From: Simmondsia chinensis
Lineage: Eukaryota; Streptophyta; Magnoliopsida; Caryophyllales; Simmondsiaceae
DNA length: 64,000 nucleotides
Assembly (NCBI GenBank): GCA_018398585.1
Contig: JAGTTD010000002.1
Span: 35,456,186 to 35,520,185 of the forward strand
Reading direction: 5' to 3'
Below are positions 2,045 through 64,000 of the stretch, piece by piece. The notes below the pieces were generated by a model, which was not told the DNA's origin, searched no databases, and saw only the letters and a list, made by a program, of their open reading frames with translations. The number at the start of each line of letters is the position of its first letter. Position 1 is the stretch's first letter. A program made the translations under genes and the position numbers.

Positions 2045-2277
2045 ACCAAAGAGGGCACCAACACGCCTTCACTGGATCCCATTAGAACTCCGAAGTTAAG
2101 CGTGCTTGGGCGAGAGTAGTACTAAGATGGGTGACCTCCTACAAAGTCCTCACCCTCAGGTGGGGGGCACTCGAAAACAGCCTCTCTTTAGGCTAACACC
2201 CTAAAGGGGGAAGGCTGTGTACATCCGGCGCCCCCCCCCCCCGACTCAGGGTAGGCGGGAGCCCTTGAGGCACTGGG
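2045..2277 (+). mobile_element. SINE with 5S rRNA-derived head and Au-like body (copy A)
   Basis: Positions about 2070-2140 match the central part of plant 5S rRNA almost base for base, including the internal Pol III promoter: A-box region GAAGTTAAGCGTGCTTGG at 2092-2109 and C-box region GGATGGGTGACC-like at about 2125-2136 (here with AAGATGGG). From about 2160 the sequence becomes an Au-type SINE body: AAACAGCCTCTCT, AAGGCTGTGTACATCC, a C-rich run, GGCGGGAGCCC and GCACTGGG at 2277. It interrupts gypsy gag. The flanks show an imperfect 7-bp duplication (GTTTCTT left, GTTCCTT right). It is not a functional 5S gene because the ends of 5S rRNA are missing. Confidence 0.8.
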
Positions 2278-3283
2278 TATGTTCCTTTTTGACCTCCAAG
2301 AGTAGCCTGGGGGGTCTCCTAGGGCCAGTATTGCAGACCCTCCTCACGTCCTTCATCGTTCTTTTAATCTTCGAGTTATGGCCCGGTGCATGCTTCTCAT
2401 ATTTTTGGTACTCACGCCTAGGTGGTTTTGTTTTGTCCATCTCGTCTTCTACAGTGAAGTATTTGTTGGTTTTGGTCCATAATGCATCCATAATCGTGAG
2501 GAGAGCCTTGGCAGGGGAAAATTTGAAGTCGCTATTCCAGAGTCCATTGATAAAGGTGGTGATGGCTGTTTGATTAGCTAGGCTCGGGATACTGATCATT
2601 GCTTTTGAGAATCGTCACACAAACGCCGTTAAGGACTCACTGCTGGCTTATTGGAGCTGATAGCTAGGTTCGGGATACTGATCATTGCTTTTGAGAATTG
2701 TTGCACAAACGCCCTCAAGGACTCACCGTTGGCTTGTTGGAGCTGAATCAACTGGGCCGCAGTCTTCTTTCTTCTTTTGTCGCTAAGGAAGTGCGGACAG
2801 CTCCTGAAGTTCTTGTATGGACCTGATGGGGAGAGAGGCGAATCAGGCCCGAGCCATGCCTTTGATGGTGGCCAGGAAACACTTGCACCACACGTCCTCG
2901 GACGCATCTTGTATGTACATCAGTGCCTCAAATCCCGAGACGTGGTGGTCCGGGTCTTGCGTCCCATCGAACAACTCCAAATTTGGAATTTTCACTTTCC
3001 CCATAGGTGCGGTGAGTATCCGAGGAGTGAAGGGCGAATGGGTAATGGGAATTCTTCCCTTGGGCCCGCGCGCTGCCCCCTCCGAGTTGGGGTCGGAGTC
3101 CACCTCGAGTGAGGGGGGAGTGTTTTCTGGTATGTTCCTCAACTTGTGGGGGCGGCAAGGTGTGACTGCTGGGAGCAGCATTAAACTCCCGACGGTTAGC
3201 TTTGAAGGGGTGTGTCTCATGGGAACAAAAGCAGAAATGTAGGTCTTGCTTGGGAGAGACAGACGCGTATTTATGAGGCGCAT
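2278..3283 (-). pseudogene. gypsy gag (Retrotrans_gag-type) remains
   Basis: Three overlapping open stretches (3283-2843, 2907-2629, 2599-2278) together give a plant gypsy capsid protein. Recognisable pieces are ITHSPFTPRILTAP and VKIPNLELFDGTQDP near the start of the core, MYIQDASEDVWCKCFLATIKG, LSDKRRKKTAAQLIQLQQ, and TAITTFINGLWNSDFKF. Each has a close counterpart in the gag at 15836-16756. The frame is broken at least twice, one break being caused by the 86-bp tandem duplication at 2575-2746. Gag would form the virus-like particle. The N-terminus could lie near 3283, but no reliable start is identifiable. Confidence 0.85.
2575..2746. repeat. 86-bp tandem duplication inside gypsy gag
   Basis: Two adjacent copies, 2575-2660 and 2661-2746, both begin TAGCTAGG and end TTGGAGCTGA. 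They differ at several sites (for example GGCTCGGG versus GGTTCGGG). Because 86 is not a multiple of 3, the duplication shifts the gag reading frame, which explains the break between the two open stretches there. The differences mean it is not very recent. Confidence 0.8.
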
Positions 3284-8440: not shown

Positions 8441-9235
8441 CCACTCGCGTTAGGCAAAGGTTAACCGCCCAACAATTTCTTACTTCCTCTCTCCAATCTG
8501 AGAAAGGAATACCAAGCCCCAATTGTTCAAGGGACTTAGAACACCGTGGGCTTTCACGTTAGGTGAAAGCCAATCGCCTGCAGGCCTTCACGTCAGGTGA
8601 AGGTTTACCCGCCCAACAATTTCTTACTTCCTCTCTCCAATCTGAGCAAGAAATACCAAGCCCCCATTGTTATAGGGACTTAGAACACCGTGAGCTTTCA
8701 CGTTATGTGAAAGCCAACCGCCTATGGGCCTTCACGTCAGGTGAAGGTTAACCGCTAGCAATATCTTGCTCCCTTTCTCCGACCTAAGCAGGAAATACCA
8801 AGCCCCCATTGTTAAAGGGACTTAGAACACCATGGGCTTTCACGTTAGGTCATTAGGTGAAAGCCAACCGCCTGCGGCCTTCACGTCAGGTGAAGTTTAA
8901 CCGCCCAACAATTTCTTGCTCTCTTTCTCCATCCTGAGCAAGAAATACCAAGCCCCAATTGTTAAAGGGACTTAGAACACCGTGGGCTTTCATGTTAGGT
9001 GAAACCCAACCGCCTGCGGGCCTTCACGTCAGGTGAAGGTTAACCGCCCAACAATTTCTTGCTCTCTTTCTCCATCCTGAGCAAGAAATACCAAGGCCCC
9101 ATTATTAAAGGGACTTAGAACACCGTGGGCTTTCACGTTAGGTGAAAGCCAACCGCCTGCGGGTCTTCACGTCAGGTGAAGGTAACCGCCCAACAATTTC
9201 TTGCTCTTTTTCTCCATCACATTAGGTGAAAGCCA
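8441..9235. repeat. Tandem array, about 144-bp unit, ~5.5 copies
   Basis: The marker CTTCACGTCAGGTGAAG recurs at about 8585, 8729, 8878, 9021 and 9164 (spacing 143-149 bp). Each unit also contains AACAATTTCTTGCT, AAATACCAAGCCCCCATTG, GGGACTTAGAACACCGTGGG and CTTTCACGTTAGGTGAAAG. The last two hairpin-like motifs are palindromic (CTTTCAC...GTGAAAG and CCTTCAC...GTGAAGG), so each unit can form two stem-loops. The first copy is diverged and abuts the 91-bp array directly. Confidence 0.9.
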
Positions 9236-24110: not shown

Positions 24111-24528
24111 GGTCGTCGGGTCTAATTTCTCAGTTGATAAAGTGAGTAAGAATTAATAGAACTAACAATTTAATCTATCCAATTTGCCAAAAAAATGAAT
24201 TTAAAAATTAAAACACCTAACTAATTTTTAAAATGGCATTTTGGCGGGAAAATTGGTTAATAATCGTTGGGGTTGCTGCTTGTTGGCGCTTCTTTGGGCT
24301 GCTGCAGCTAGTTAAGTTCAAATTTTAAAGATTTTTGCTTTTTCTTGTTTTTACCCTTCTTCCCTTATTTCCTATGTCTATATTAGGATGAGGGTCTCGT
24401 TGTGCAAGTAACTTTTGATGATTAATACAGTTCAATTACAATTTTCTCCCAATTCTCTCAAACTCTCTCTTTCTCCCTTACTTTTTTCTTAATTCTACTT
24501 CTCCCTAACTCTCTCTTCTCTTTCTCTT
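24111..24528 (+). repeat. Probable 3' LTR of the chromovirus fragment
   Basis: It follows a typical gypsy end: TTGAGGACAAGGATTTCC and a TTTGGGGGG polypurine tract at about 24081-24109. The sequence then runs GTCGGGTCTAATTTCTCAG into a CT-rich end (CTCTCTTTCTCCC repeats at about 24455-24525). The LTR start would normally be TG; the observed base pair is TC or GT, so the exact boundary is uncertain. No second LTR exists for comparison. Confidence 0.55.
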
Positions 24529-26977: not shown

Positions 26978-28649
26978 AGTTTTTTACCTCAATGGCACAG
27001 TTTCAAAAAAAAAAAAAAAAAAAAAAAAAAACCAAAATAGTACGGTTCAAAAAATATTTACCAAAATGGAACAGTTTACTGTAGCTACTTCAACGTATCC
27101 CGTTTAAAATGGTGTATGACCTGGGCATGAACAACGTTAGCCGTTACAAACAACATACGACCAAACTTTTATGTCATACGATGTTTGTAATGGCGTATGA
27201 ATAGTTAATTCTTTTTTTTTACGGAAGCACTACTAATTTGTATTTTTAAAAGTATTGCATTAAAATTATTTTACATAAATAATTTAAAATTTTAACTAAG
27301 AATAAAAAATGACAAATAGAAAACAAAGCCAAAGATTGCCTTATAGCTATTTGCATCCTTTGGCATCCGAAAATCTTCTTTACTAAGAATTTTTTTTTTT
27401 TTCTCTGGCATTATTCTTTCTTCCTTGTCTAAGAAATTTTTTTTTTCTCTGGCATTATTCTTTCTTCCTTGTTTAGTTAGAAAATGTGACAAAGATAATG
27501 TTGCTCACCGAAAAGTAGAGCAAAATTGTTCAACTAAGCTGTATGATCAATTCTGCGGAAAATTTATGGCTAATTTTATAACACCAAAGTTCCAAAATTT
27601 AGGAAAAGAATGAAATTGTATCTTCTTACCGATAACACACCGGTATTTTGACTATTCATTTTTTCAAAAGTATCCACATCATATTGTGATACTTTTGTTT
27701 GTATCATTCTTTATACTTAAAAAGAGCATATAAGGCAATTTGTCGTAGAGCTTATAGCTATGCCTGAAGGGAGCCATTGGAGCATTGGAAATGTACGTTG
27801 CTTTCTATTTACTATATTTAATATAGTGAACAATAATAATAATATATATAGGTCATGTCATTATTCAGGTACTCGTTAAATTTTTGTTGAACCAATATTA
27901 TATACATGAAATTATGTATTACTTTTTGGATGAAATCATAAATGGTGAAAGGTTTCAAAAATAATGTTATACACAATAAGGGCAACATACTTTGTAAAAA
28001 CAACCAAGAAGAAAAATATTATTTAGAAAAGGACCAGGAAAGGTATCAACAATTTATAAGTGACCAGGACAATTACTCGAAAAAATAACATGACAACCAA
28101 AAAGAATATGTGGTAAATAATGTGCCAATTAAAAAGATGGCACATGCAATGTTATGATGAAGTTAATATAGGAACATACCTAGTGCCTCAAGGGCTCCCG
28201 CCTATGCAGGGTCTGGGGGGACGGATATACGCAGCCCTCCCCCTTCAGGGTGTTGAAGAGAGGTTGTTTCCGAGTGCCCCCAACTTGAGAGTAAGGACTC
28301 CCAGGAGGTCACCCATCCTGATACTATTCTCCCCCATCCTGATAAAGCTAATATACTTTTTAAAAAAATTTAAAAAATTATTGAAATTTTAAATTATTTA
28401 TGTAAAATAGTTTTAATGTAATAATTTTTAAAATACAAATTAGCTGTGCTTCTATAAAAAATATATATATATATATATTGTTCATACGCCATTTGTAACA
28501 GCATATGACAGTAAAATTGTGGTCGTACACTGTTTTAAACGGCGTACGTTGAAAAAGTTACAGTAAACTGCGCCATTTTGGTAAATATTTTTTGAACCAT
28601 GCCATTTTTATAATTTTTTTTTAAACCGTACCATTAAGATAAAAACCTG
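26978..28649. mobile_element. Long-TIR (Mutator-like) non-autonomous element, 1.67 kb, 10-bp target duplication
   Basis: The terminal ~320 bp (26978-27305 and 28331-28649) are inverted repeats at roughly 75-80% identity. Shared blocks include ATGGTACGGTT-like, CAAAAAATATTTACCAAAATGG, CAGTTTACTGTA and ACATAAATAATTTAAAATTT. Exact direct repeats CTTAATTTTG flank it (26968-26977; 28650-28659). Long TIRs plus a 9-10 bp duplication indicate a Mutator-like element. The interior has no transposase; it contains a duplicated TTCTCTGGCATTATTCTTTC segment (27401-27475). A SINE lies next to the right TIR. Confidence 0.75.
28178..28331 (-). mobile_element. 5S/Au-like SINE, 5'-truncated (copy C)
   Basis: On the minus strand: the end of the 5S-derived head (AGTATCAGGATGGGTGACCTCC), GGGAGTCCTTACTCTCAAG, GGAAACAACCTCTCTTC, GGGCTGCGTATATCC, CCCAGACCCTGC, GGCGGGAGCCCTTGAGGCAC. 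The head begins in the middle of 5S, so it is truncated. It sits just inside the right TIR of the Mutator-like element. Confidence 0.75.
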
Positions 28650-29114
28650 CTTAATTTTGTTTCTCTTTTCGTCTTCCTTCTCTACCCATCTAGGAATAAC
28701 CTCCCTCTCTTTTTTGAACCTTTACTACTTTAGGGTCAAGGAAACCCCATTATTTTTTTTTCCTTTTCTTTTTCTTATTTTTTTTTTCTAATTTTCGTTT
28801 TCTTTTCTTTTTCAGTTTTTCTTTCATTTAGTAAAATAAAATTGGATTGAATATTAAAAAAGTATTGAACTATACCCCAAAAAAAGTTTTTGGTATTTAA
28901 ATCTTCAATGGTATAAAAAAGCATTGAATATATGTGCAAAAATTAATTTGAATTTGAACCACCATACAAGAATTAATTTAACATTATACAATTGGGGGGA
29001 ATAAATTTAATATTCTAGTTATATATTTAATATGTATAATTCATTTTTTGACAATTACATATATATTTTACTATATATATTGTATAATTAAATTAGATTT
29101 ACTTAATTAAAATT

Positions 29115-29406
29115 ACCAAAGAGGGCACCAACACGCCGTCACCGGAACCCATTAGAACTCCGAAGTTAAGCGTGCTTGGACGAGAGTAGTATCAGGATGG
29201 GTGATCTCCTGGGAAGTCCTCACCCTCAGGTTGGGGGCACTAGGAAACAGCCTCTCTTCATGTTAACACCTTGAATGGGGAAGGCTGCATACATCTGCCC
29301 CCCCCAGACCCTGCGTAGGTGGGAGCCCTTGAGGCACTGGGAAATAGCCTCTCTTTAGGTTAACACCTTAAAGGGGGAAGGCCGCATACCTCCGCCCCCC
29401 CAGACT
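29115..29406 (+). mobile_element. 5S/Au-like SINE with duplicated tail (copy B)
   Basis: The head matches copy A (CCAAAGAGGGCACCAACACG, then the 5S part at about 29141-29220 with GAAGTTAAGCGTGCTTGG and GGATGGGTGATCTCCTGGG). The body runs to GAGGCACTGGG at 29341. Immediately after, 29342-29406 repeats the body segment 29246-29310 (AAATAGCCTCTCT, GGGGGAAGGC, CCCAGAC), so the 3' half is duplicated. Confidence 0.82.
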
Positions 29407-29519
29407 GGTAAACTTAATTTAGTTCTTGTACAAGTTAGTTTTTTTTTTTTTTTAATCGTACAAGTTTAGTTCTTGTACAAGTTAATAACATATCTTTTAA
29501 TTGTTTGATCGCATTTTTT

Positions 29520-29980
29520 AGCCTAATTAAACCCCATTATGACTCGACCGGTAAACAAATTTTCACCATATTGACCTTAATTTTACTCTAAAACTACAAG
29601 TAAAAGTAGGCTAATTAAAATTAATTTAGCCTAATTAAACTCACTAGCAACCTGGCCGTTAAAAAAACTTTCATCATTTTGACGTCAATTTTTGCTATTG
29701 ATCTACAAGTAAAATTAGGCTAATTAAAAACTAATTTAGTATAATTAAACTTACTCATGACCAGACCGTTGAAAACATTTTTATGACACTGAACTTAATT
29801 TTAGTATAGGATTACGAGTAAAATTAGGCTAATTAAAAATTAATTTAGCCTAATTAAGTTTACTTATTATCCGACCGCTAAAAAAATTTTCACAGCATTG
29901 ATCTTAATTTTGCTGTAGGACTACAAGTAAAATTTGGTTAATTAAAAAATAATTTAGCCTAATTTACTTTGTCCTACTAT
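29520..29980. repeat. Tandem array, ~110-bp unit, ~4 copies
   Basis: TTAGCCTAATTAA-type blocks recur at about 29519, 29626, 29737, 29846 and 29956. Each unit has (G)ACCNGACCGTTAAAAA, a TTTTCA..AT motif, a TTAATTTTNCT segment and ACAAGTAAAATTAGGCTAATTAAAA. Units differ by many substitutions, so the array is old. It forms the loop of the foldback element. Confidence 0.8.
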
Positions 29981-30215
29981 AAAATGAACGCTAAGGTGGT
30001 GTTAAAATTTTTTTGTGATCGGGTCACAAATGGATTTAATTAGGTTTAATGGTGGGTTTGCTTTGGGTTCCGCATCTAATGTAACCAAATGATTAAAAGA
30101 TATGTTATTAACTTGTACGAATACTAAACTGATACAATGAAAATAAAAGAATTAAATTGACCCATTAGTTGAAGCACAAGAATATTTTACGTAGATAAAC
30201 CTAATCTAATTATAC

Positions 30216-30365
30216 AATACAACAACAACAACAATCCCAGTGCCTCAAAGGGCTCCCGCATAAGCAAGGTCGGGGGGGGGGGGGATAGATGTATGTAGTC
30301 TTCCTACTTCCAGGAGCTACCCTGAAGGGAGGCTGTTTCCGAGGACCCCAACCTGAGACTAAGGG
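30216..30365 (-). mobile_element. Au-like SINE body with (TTG)n tail, head lost (copy D)
   Basis: On the minus strand: CTCAGGTTGGGGTCC, GGAAACAGCCTCCCTTCAGGG, a C-rich run, GCGGGAGCCCTTTGAGGCACTGGG, followed by a TTGTTGTTGTTGTTG tail (30219-30234). TTG-repeat tails are typical of plant SINEs and show that the element ends at GCACTGGG-A-(TTG)n. The 5S part is absent; the truncation is at the head/body junction. Confidence 0.8.
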
Positions 30366-30739
30366 ATCAAATGCACTTAGTTATTAAAAAAATAGATTAT
30401 AGATATTAAGTACACATCTATAATGCTTAATTTATTCCCTTTAATTGTATAAGTCCAAATTAATTCATATATGGTAGTTCAATTCCAAATTAATTCCTAC
30501 TTGGGCATTCAATGCTTTTCCTACACCATTGAAGAGCTAAATACAAAAAAATATTCTTTTGGGGTATGGTTCAATATCTTTTTAATATTTTTTCAATAAA
30601 ATAAGACTAAACAAAAATATAGGTTGGACCCAACTGTATTTATATAAAAAATATTTCGATATTTGTTTAGTCATAGTTGAATATATTTGAATTTCATGCC
30701 TCTCAATTGAATGGAAGCCCAAGGCTTACGCTCAGGTAT

Positions 30740-34019: not shown

Positions 34020-34850
34020 GATTTAAGGTCCGTGTTCACCGTGGACGAATCCACCAATTCGTATCCTGCCACGAAAAGTGCCACGAACTTATGGTTTTCG
34101 TTTACCATGAATGGATCTATGGGTTTGTATCCTACCACGGGTGGTGCCACGGACTTACTTCGTTTACCACTGACGGATCCACAGGTTTGTCTCCTGCAAC
34201 GGACGGTGCCACGGGCTTACAGTTTTTGTTCGCCGTGGACGGATCCATGGGTTTGTATCCTGCTATGGACGGTGCCACGGGCTTATGGGTTTTGTTCACC
34301 GCGGATGGGCCCATGGGTTTGTATCTTGCCGAGGATGGTGCCACGGGCTTACTATTTTTGTTCACTGCAGACGGGTCCATGGGTTTGTATCCTGCCGCGG
34401 ACGGTGCTCCTACAGCGGACGGTGCCACGGACTTACGATTTTCGTTCACTGCGGATGGATCTATAGGTTTGTATCCTACTGTGGGCGGTGCCACGGACTT
34501 ACGATCTTCGTTCACCGCAGACGGATCCACGGGTTTGTCCCATGCCACCGATGGTGCCACGGGCTTACGATTTTTGTTCATCGTGGACAGGTCCATGGGT
34601 TTGTCTCCTGCAGCAGATGGTGCCACGGGCTAATGGTTTTTGTTCACCATGGACAGGGCCATGGGTTTGTATCCTGCCGCAGATAGTGCCACGGGCTTAC
34701 AGTCTTCGTTCACCGCGGACGGATCCACGGGCTTGTATCCTGCTGCCGACGGTGCCATGGGCTTATGGTTTTCATTCACCACGGATGGATCCACAGGTTT
34801 ATATCCTGCCGTGGATGGTGCCACTGGCTTATAGTCCGTTTGTTGTGGAC
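34020..34850. repeat. 66-bp tandem array, ~12 copies
   Basis: GGTGCCACGG-like markers recur at 34143, 34205, 34271, 34337, 34403, 34421 (an 18-bp partial duplication), 34487, 34553, 34619, 34685, 34751 and 34817, a period of 66 bp. Consensus words are GGATCCACGGGTTTGTATCC and TGCCGCGGACGGTGCC. Because 66 is divisible by 3, several frames stay open for 130-180 codons on both strands, each giving a 22-residue periodic peptide. There is no bias toward one frame, so coding is doubtful. Confidence 0.92.
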
Positions 34851-35600
34851 GGATCCACAGGCTTTCTTCCAGCCGGTGTGCAGAGCCATCCGAGCTTACG
34901 GGTTGTTTCCCTGTGTACAGAGCCATCCGGGCTTTAGCCTCCCTCAGACGGACTTATGGTCTAATGCCGTGGACAGGTCCATGAGCTTTCTTCTAGCCGG
35001 TGTAAAAAGCCATATGGGCTTACCGGTTATTTGCCGGTGTACAAAGCCATCCGGAATTAGCCTGCCACGGACGAGCTTATGGTCTGCTTGCCATGGGCAG
35101 GCCCGTGGGCTTTCTTCTAGCCGGTGTTCAGAGCCATCCGGACTTTATCCTTCCACAGATGGGCTTACGAAGGGCCGGAGTACAGAGCCATCCGGGCTTT
35201 TATATTTGACCCGCTTTAGAAGGGTGTGTTCAGTAACTGAGCTATTGACATCCGAGCTAGTTCTATTATGCCCGCTTCAGAAGAGCACATATTTTGTCGA
35301 GGGTGCGACCGACGGGCTTTTCATCGAGTCGGTGTACAAAGCCACCCGGGCTTACGGGCAATTTGCCTGTGTACAGAGCCATTCGGGCTTAGCATGCCTC
35401 TGACGGACTTACAGTCTAATGCCATGGATGAGTCCACAGGCTTTTAGGAACCACGAGCGAGACCAATGGGTTTAATTGCCCAAGGCGGACTGCCCTCACG
35501 GCTTAAGCGCATAAACCCCTCTTCCTCGAAAGGACTTACGATTTAAACGTTTACAAACTTGGTGCGCCATTGGCAAGACTAATGATGTCAGCTCGCCATG
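34850..35600. repeat. Degenerate repeats related to the 66-bp array
   Basis: Words GCCGGTGTACAGAGCCATCC and GGGCTTACGG recur irregularly (34875, 34920, 35000, 35040, 35120, 35175, 35335, 35380). Spacing is variable (about 40-120 bp), so it looks like a decayed higher-order array. One plus-strand frame stays open from 34765 to 35403 but contains no known motif. Confidence 0.65.
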
Positions 35601-35879
35601 GCCGGCCCTTATGGCTTAAGCATTCGTGCCAACTGTTTTTGAAAATCTTTTGGCACAAACGTTTACATTCTTTATTTAGTGTTTTTGATGTTTTTGTTAA
35701 CTATGATTGTTGCGTTGGCACGGGCATATTTAGCCACTTATTATTTATTCTTTTTTGTATATTATTATTTTTGTTGCTCTTTCTTTGTCCGATTTTTTGG
35801 AGGCTCGATTTTTTGATCAAATATGTTACATGTATTATATGTATTTTTATTTATATGTTCCCTTCTTACCCATGGCATG

Positions 35880-36330
35880 TCGCCTGCCTCGGACGGGGCT
35901 TATGGCTTCAAGCACCAGCATCTCTCCTGCCTCACACGGGGCTTACGGCTCCAAGTGTTGGCATCTCTCCTGCCTCGGATGGGGCTTACAGCTTCAAGCG
36001 TCGGCATCTCTCCTGCCTCGGACGGGGCTTACAGCTTCAAGCGTCGGCATCTCTCCTGCCTCGGACGGGGCTTACGGCTTCAAGCATCGGCATCTCTCCT
36101 ACCTCGGATGGGGCTTACGGCTTCAGGCATTGGCATCTTTCTTGCCTTGGACGGGGCTTACAACTTCAAGTGTTGGCATCTCTCTTGCCTTGGATGGGTT
36201 TTATGACTTCAAGTGTCGGCAACTCTCCTGCCTTGGACGGGGCTTACGGGTTCAAGTGTTGGTGTCTCGCCTGCCTTGGACGGGGCTTACAGCTTTAAGC
36301 ATTGGCGTCTCGCTTGCCTCGTGCGGGCTT
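35880..36330. repeat. 43-bp tandem array, ~10 copies
   Basis: CATCTCTCCTGCC recurs with a strict 43-bp step at 35919, 35962, 36005, 36048, 36091, 36134, 36177, 36220, 36263 and 36306. The unit is roughly TCGGACGGGGCTTACGG, then CTTCAAGCGTCGGCATCT. As 43 is not a multiple of 3, every reading frame passes through all three phases, and all three plus frames stay open (242, 199 and 127 codons). Perfect phase and few indels indicate a young array. Confidence 0.93.
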
Positions 36331-36339
36331 ACGGTGATA

Positions 36340-63118: not shown

Positions 63119-63437
63119 GTACTCGTGAGCAATTTTTTCTTTTAATTATCAGAAAAAAGATATTGACAAGATAATAATATGACTTGTACTGAGTAATAAT
63201 CACAAAATTTCACAAAATTGTTCTATGATGATAACACTTTTGCTTCGGTACTTTTGCTTAGACGACAAATTTATACATGATAAAAAATAATTAATCTATG
63301 AAAGTAATTATTTAGAAAAGTAATTATTCTATATTATATTTCGGTAGTTAATAATTTATTGCTATATTTACTGAATTCAAATAGTAATATTTCCTAGCTT
63401 ATTGTTGCATGAAATCAGGGGTTTGGGCCCCAAAAAT

Positions 63438-63535
63438 AACCTTCATCAAAGGTAGTACTCTGTAGGATTAAGGCTGCGTATATTTCATCTTCACAGACCC
63501 CACTTTGAACGAAGCCTTTCAGGCACTGAAATTTT
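63438..63535 (+). mobile_element. Old Au-like SINE remnant
   Basis: AAAGGTAGTACTCTGTAGGATTAAGGCTGCGTATATTTC, then ACAGACCCCAC and AAGCCTTTCAGGCACTG. Order and spacing match the Au-like body (AAGGCTGCGTACAT, AGACCC, GGGAGCC, GCACTGGG) but with many substitutions. The 5S head is absent. An ATTATT-rich tail follows. Confidence 0.5.
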
Positions 63536-63924
63536 TATTATTATTTTATATATGCTAAATGACTTGGCGCTAGATTAAATTTTTAAAATTCATAAGAAAG
63601 TTATGGTTTATTCATTTAACGTCACAACATGTAGTGTTGTATACTGAGAGTTTTTATTAGTATGTTAATCATTTTCCCACAAACCAAGGTAATATATGAA
63701 CAAGGTCGGCTTAAGATTAAATTTGATCGAGATGCCATTTTTAGTTCACAATGCTTTCATTTTATGCTAGAATATGCGTTAATATGTAGATCATTTGTAC
63801 TATGCATACATATTTATTGATAATATGACATATATAAGCTTTTAATTTTGCAATCATGAATAGTAATATACAGTAAACAAAATAATAAAATAACTCATTC
63901 TTTAAACCAGGCTAGGGGGAAGGC

Positions 63925-64000
63925 TAGGAAGTCCTAACCCTCAGGTTGGGGGCACTGGGAAACAGCCTCTCTTCAGGTTAACACTCTGAAGAGGTAATGC
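63925..64000 (+). mobile_element. 5S/Au-like SINE, cut by the window end (copy E)
   Basis: CTAGGAAGTCCTAACCCTCAG, GGTTGGGGGCACTGGGAAACAG, CCTCTCTTCAGGTTAACACTC match the 5S-tail/body junction of copies A and B. The 5S head is replaced by GGCTAGGGGGAAGG, so it is 5'-truncated. The rest lies beyond the window. Confidence 0.7.

Follow-up and report, generated by a model that had tools for sequence, protein, structure and literature searches.

What kind of element joins 5S rRNA sequence to a second, recurring sequence at several places in a 64-kb stretch of plant DNA? The stretch (the window) is G000:C32:35456186-35520185, in a genome of 831 Mb in 35 contigs, and the original prediction for it was a SINE family that combines a 5S rRNA head with an Au-like body. 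We found that the head had been correctly recognized and that the body had not. The elements most likely (a probability of roughly 0.93) form a SINE3-like family in which a near-complete 5S rRNA is joined to the terminal ~125 nt of an RTE-type LINE.

Two regions of the window matched Rfam families by cmscan at gathering thresholds, and both were 5S_rRNA (gathering score 38). The match in copy B (29115-29232) scored 65 bits (E 2.2e-11) and that in copy A (2045-2162) scored 61 bits (E 2.4e-10). ARAGORN detected no tRNA in the window, so there was no sign there of a tRNA-derived head as in Au or TS SINEs. An HMM built from eight full-length copies (L001-L008) gave seven rows in the window: copies A through E, a second piece of the body of copy B, and a weak fragment at 63420 (Table 1). 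Four copies (A, B, C, and E) retain 5S sequence, where at least five copies had been predicted in the 64 kb. Copies C, D, and E had been described as 5'-truncated; this was right for C and E, which are cut within the 5S head. Copy D has no 5S head and is either a 3' fragment of a LINE or a SINE cut at the junction. Copy A had been taken to end at 2277, and its real extent is 2045-2285 plus a T-run to 2290.

Table 1. Positions of the 5S-headed copies and related sequences in the window
Feature	Position	Strand	Basis
Copy A, 5S rRNA-derived head (5S positions 1-107; boxes A, IE, C within)	2045..2151	+	cmscan, host 5S comparison
Copy A, body from RTE LINE 3' end, with C-run and TATGTTCC end	2152..2285	+	HMM positions to 241, LINE 3' end alignment
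Copy A, terminal T-run	2286..2290	+	sequence
Copy B, 5S head	29115..29221	+	cmscan, host 5S comparison
Copy B, body	29222..29341	+	HMM row 1-233
Copy B, second partial body joined at repeated motif GGCACTGGG; usual 3' end missing	29333..29401	+	HMM row 122-190, sequence
Copy C, 5'-truncated within 5S head, ends TATGTTCC	28171..28339	-	HMM row 28336-28171, HMM positions 63-241; target duplication
Copy D, body only, (TTG)n tail	30219..30356	-	HMM row 30364-30230, HMM positions 104-239; sequence
Copy E, 5'-truncated in head; runs past window end to L086 position 288	63913..64000	+	HMM row from 63921, HMM positions 92-170
Copy E, left target duplication (right one: L086 289-304)	63897..63912	+	sequence
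Weak body-only fragment of LINE 3' end	63420..63528	+	HMM 20.9 bits, E 2.6e-5

The body of copy B is partly doubled via GGCACTGGG, a motif present at both the start and the end of the body, and the doubling looks like a slip during reverse transcription. Copies B and D lie within a larger inverted repeat (28941-30495), one in each arm at matching positions. The arms (28941-29049/30387-30495 and 29442-29515/30078-30151, plus the SINE bodies) are 78-81% complementary, and the inverted repeat could be either a fold-back element or a duplication. Many long open frames between 539 and 62862 resemble retrotransposon genes, presumably of gypsy and copia elements judging by their motifs, and copy A seems to be placed in a gag-like stretch of the opposite strand. 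Minisatellite-like tandem arrays with periods of 43, 66, 84, 124, 150, 216, and 348 are present at 34033-36334, in open frames of the + strand.

We compared the heads to L083, a gene from one of the host's tandem 5S arrays on contig C8. Copy A is identical to the host 5S at 71 of 76 positions between 32 and 107, and copy B at 68 of 76; each matches at 15 of the 31 positions from 1 to 31. These numbers, together with the Rfam matches, bear out the prediction of 5S sequence in A and B. Genome-wide, the copies fall into two subfamilies, which we call old and young. The old-subfamily consensus matches the host 5S at 99 of 115 positions, including all seven from 108 through 114. In both subfamilies, the boxes of the internal promoter are well kept relative to the host 5S (box A, 15/15; IE, 6/6; C, 16/18). 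That is, the elements have the 5' head, derived from 5S rRNA and carrying boxes A, IE, and C, that characterizes SINE3 elements. The sequence AAGTCCTC, predicted to be a linker between head and body, is 5S positions 100-107. In old copies, position 107 is followed by GTGTTGC, the next 5S bases, so that 5S is kept to approximately position 114, and then by the body. In young copies, ~11 nt are missing at the 5S end, before the body.

The head also carries information about its source. T39 and A49 are present in both consensus sequences and in the host 5S. Arabidopsis 5S has C at both positions. This combination, common to the consensus sequences and the host and unlike Arabidopsis, suggests that the source was the 5S of this lineage. 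Both consensus sequences are without the host variants at 81, 95, and 106, so the fusion may predate some changes in the host 5S. The variant at 81 is found in several young copies, copy A included. There are two arrays of 5S genes on contig C8, on opposite strands (4685657-4702430 and 6396691-6414603), with repeat spacings of ~437 and ~421 bases.

Joined copies are abundant. Allowing up to three mismatches, a pattern for the young head-body junction had 11,435 matches in the 831 Mb and one for the old junction had 7,402, together 18,837 copies. The 5S C box plus AAGTCCTC matched at 24,284 places (up to three mismatches), a count that includes true 5S genes, and the young tail pattern at 9,006 (up to two mismatches). 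As a control, each pattern was read backwards; none had a match anywhere in the genome. A search with copy A as query gave 4,802 initial candidates. The 40 that were scored all span almost the entire query; copy A itself is 100% identical and the other 39 are 88-91% identical. Twenty stretches of 10 kb, taken non-randomly at one coordinate of 20 contigs (200 kb in all), contained 19 HMM rows, 8 with a 5S head and 11 body-only. Viral contigs had no match to the junction or to the 5S core, as expected of a plant repeat.

We analyzed the ends of 40 copies, the first 20 exact 24-base matches for each junction on contig C1, a sample that favors younger copies. The 5' motif that marks 5S +1 was reached by 24 of the 40 (13/20 old and 11/20 young), and the other 16 were truncated or too diverged for this motif. 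Sixteen of the 24 full-length copies are flanked by target duplications (score of at least 10) of 13-20 bp, with a mean of 16.6 bp. Of 552 swapped flank pairs used as a control, 0.54% reached this threshold. No duplication over threshold was detected for the remaining 8 of the 24.

Duplications were also present around other copies. Among L001-L008, the program found four clear ones (15-20 bp), and the best of 56 swapped pairs scored 8. L006 has a duplication of 30 bp, spotted by eye, with ten extra bases ahead of the element. These ten bases (GGATCCCATT, L006:1491-1500), between the duplication and the start of the element, exactly match part of the element's 5S sequence. We found no duplication for L001 (copy A), L003, or L008, and copy B has only a 10 bp match with one mismatch, which scores under the best swapped control. 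Copy C is flanked by 16 bp with two mismatches (28340-28355 and 28155-28170). Copy E, once completed in L086, was seen by eye to have a perfect 16 bp duplication, ATTCTTTAAACCAGGC. Truncated copies with duplications, such as C and E, are what target-primed reverse transcription leaves. Like SINE3 elements, the members of this family are scattered through the genome in high copy number, have constant ends, and are often flanked by target duplications. The predicted SINE family with a 5S head holds up, including the combination of head, body, and target duplications in 16 of the 24 full-length copies.

The two subfamilies differ at both ends. Old copies keep 5S to ~114 and have a (TTG)n tail. 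Young copies have lost ~11 nt at the 5S end, have a changed first 31 nt and a C-run, and end in TTCC(T)n. At least three TTG repeats are present in 14 of the 20 old copies and in no young copy (0 of 20). Conversely, the GTATGTTCC end is present in 11 of the 20 young and none of the 20 old copies. The remaining 6 old and 9 young copies lack both ends. The prediction of a (TTG)n tail was correct in that such tails occur on 5S-headed copies elsewhere in the genome. It had been based on copy D, which is headless. We determined consensus sequences and divergence from the 24 full-length copies of the 40; the multiple alignment of copies omitted the second body of copy B (29333). Divergence from the respective consensus is 7.0-15.4% in the 13 old copies and 2.5-13.8% in the 11 young copies, and the young subfamily spread later than the old one. 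The lowest value, 1.4%, is that of L004, one of the copies chosen as best matches to copy A (L001-L008), for which low divergence is biased. With the nearest copy 1.4% from its consensus and the others examined 2.5-15.4%, the suggestion of an active family was not borne out.

The origin of the body became apparent from a body-only copy in L019 that has upstream of it a peptide with the C-terminal motif GRPKKSWIEAIRQDL, which we take to be that of RTE-type LINEs. With this 44-residue peptide as query, all 150 scored candidates (from 12,442 candidates) were matches. We read six of the 150 matches as loci, and 8 further loci at hand-picked coordinates (long open frames or closely similar scores). 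The SINE body (HMM positions ~110-239) is downstream of the LINE peptide in all six; L029 is the source of the query, leaving five independent loci, and the frame in L030 has a stop. Five of these six end in at least three TTG repeats and L034 ends in two. Seven of the eight further loci match the body and end in TTG repeats, and the eighth (L037) had no match to the body. The likeness between LINE and SINE begins at TCAGGTTGGGGG, just past the 5S end, and identity from there on is 65-86%. LINE 3' ends from this genome can be aligned along the entire body. The body is thus a LINE 3' end, and the peptide motif assigns the LINEs to the RTE type. A 3' end in common with an RTE-type LINE of the same genome is the feature of a SINE mobilized by RTE.

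The TTCC(T)n end is missing from all 16 LINE-type 3' ends read, a small share of the LINE copies in the genome, so the young subfamily has no LINE counterpart for its very last bases among these. (The 16 comprise nine alignment rows, with frames checked in all but L011, L019, and L030b, and seven loci.) RNAalifold gave a covariation term of only -1.07 for the shared 3' end, with two-sided changes in 5 of 17 pairs, and we therefore claim no conserved structure. The LINE copies at seven loci (L035, L036, and L038-L042), all with TTG repeats and the 3' end in common with the SINE, are nearly identical to one another, which suggests a LINE subfamily that was active recently. One and the same score is common to dozens of the LINE peptide matches.

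These features make the following life cycle the most likely. An internal type 1 Pol III promoter (boxes A, IE, and C) would drive transcription from 5S +1, and in young copies the T-run could serve as a Pol III terminator. The LINE-derived 3' end of the SINE RNA would be recognized by RTE reverse transcriptase and copied by target-primed reverse transcription. The fusion itself probably goes back to a template switch, in which RTE reverse transcriptase jumped from the RNA of a LINE (or of a tailed SINE) to 5S rRNA. Counting against the 5S-LINE fusion family are the 8 of 24 copies without duplication, the 0 of 16 LINE ends with TTCC(T)n, the LINE-SINE body identity of no more than 86%, and the weak covariation.

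We considered other explanations for the joined sequences. The genome contains both 5S arrays and many LINE 3' ends, and a 5S pseudogene could by chance lie beside an unrelated repeat. The 18,837 copies of two defined junctions, with none in the controls, the common 5' and 3' ends, and the duplications that enclose head and body as a whole unit make the probability of chance adjacency negligible, and we rejected it. We also rejected a Cassandra-type LTR element as the source of the copies, whether as solo LTRs or as fragments. Cassandra has LTR ends of TG...CA and target duplications of ~5 bp. In contrast, the copies here begin with ACC or AGG, end in (TTG)n or TTCC(T)n, and have duplications of 13-20 bp. 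No TG...CA ends were found among the copies read, the 5S +1 is at the extreme 5' end of the copy, and the body is LINE-derived. Neither finding that was to count against the original prediction, head and body adjacent only by chance or LTR-type ends, was obtained. Cassandra is indeed a known plant retroelement with a 5S-derived promoter (PMC10853983, PMC10886601), and yet a Cassandra origin of the copies is very improbable.

The body could instead be Au sequence, and the family an Au SINE with an exchanged head. Au SINEs have a tRNA head, and the head here is 5S. Host LINE 3' ends align with the body in full, Au having been compared by description only, and older copies end in (TTG)n like those LINEs. 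On the other side, the short T-run of young copies resembles the (T)2-5 end given for Au, for which no LINE partner is listed (PMC3747384). We consider Au ancestry improbable, and the predicted Au-like body is not supported. A less remote alternative concerns the order of events: the 5S head may have taken the place of a tRNA-derived head on an older SINE already equipped with an RTE tail, instead of being fused directly to a LINE. A route of this kind was proposed for HaSE1 to HaSE3 (PMC3272025), and plants have tRNA-headed, RTE-tailed SINEs such as TS (PMC3747384). However, 13 body-only rows revealed no tRNA head: none had an upstream box B match that beat shuffled sequence at the 5% level (lowest fraction 0.14). 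Head replacement is possible but seems unlikely, and we favor the direct fusion of 5S and LINE sequences.

The layout of a 5S head and an RTE-type tail is known from animals. HaSE3 of Helicoverpa armigera has a 5S head with boxes A, IE, and C and the 3' end of an RTE LINE of the same genome, and a template switch of RTE reverse transcriptase to 5S rRNA was proposed as its origin (PMC3272025). HaSE3 differs in being from an insect, in sharing its body with a tRNA-headed SINE, and in being rare, with none in the BAC clones of that study, compared to thousands of copies here (PMC3272025). Ped-1 of the springhare, a mammalian element likened here by description only, has a 5S head and a BovB (RTE-type) tail (Table 1 of PMC3747384). 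According to a review, SINEs with a 5S head occur in various vertebrates and in some insects (PMC7245038). Outside animals, the AfuSINE families of the fungus Aspergillus fumigatus are 5S rRNA-related (PMC5063351).

Among plant elements, likeness is partial. The last ~100 bases of the tobacco TS SINE match an RTE LINE; Ohshima matched this 3' end to a potato RTE LINE, with TTG repeats on both (PMC3747384). The old subfamily has the same kind of RTE tail with TTG repeats, TS being likened by description only, but the TS head is tRNA-derived (PMC3747384). Au shares the short 3' T-run of the young subfamily (PMC3747384) and differs in its head, the bodies being set side by side by description only. 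Cassandra is an LTR element with 5S inside its LTRs, other ends, and another mode of integration. 'SINE3' of Arabidopsis (PMC1297646) seems to be the name of a family and not the 5S class, and we set it aside. We found no prior case of a 5S-headed SINE from a plant in the open literature searched, which misses most subscription papers. As far as we have seen, the layout is new to plants.

It is possible, and we propose this tentatively, that this is the first plant 5S-headed SINE, assembled from an RTE LINE and the 5S RNA of its own lineage, and that it is in transition from a (TTG)n end to an Au-like T-run end. In that case RTE may also move Au and other T-tailed plant SINEs, and a 5S SINE, the speculated step to the promoter of Cassandra, can arise in plants. 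The speculation that a 5S SINE seeded the Cassandra 5S promoter is cited in PMC10886601. Two questions become testable: which machinery mobilizes T-tailed plant SINEs, and whether that promoter was seeded by a 5S SINE. For annotation of 5S genes, the family is a warning: at least 18,837 places join 5S sequence to a LINE end and are not 5S genes. More generally, a large plant family would show that the choice of a 5S promoter succeeds in plants too, with a likely LINE partner in the same genome.
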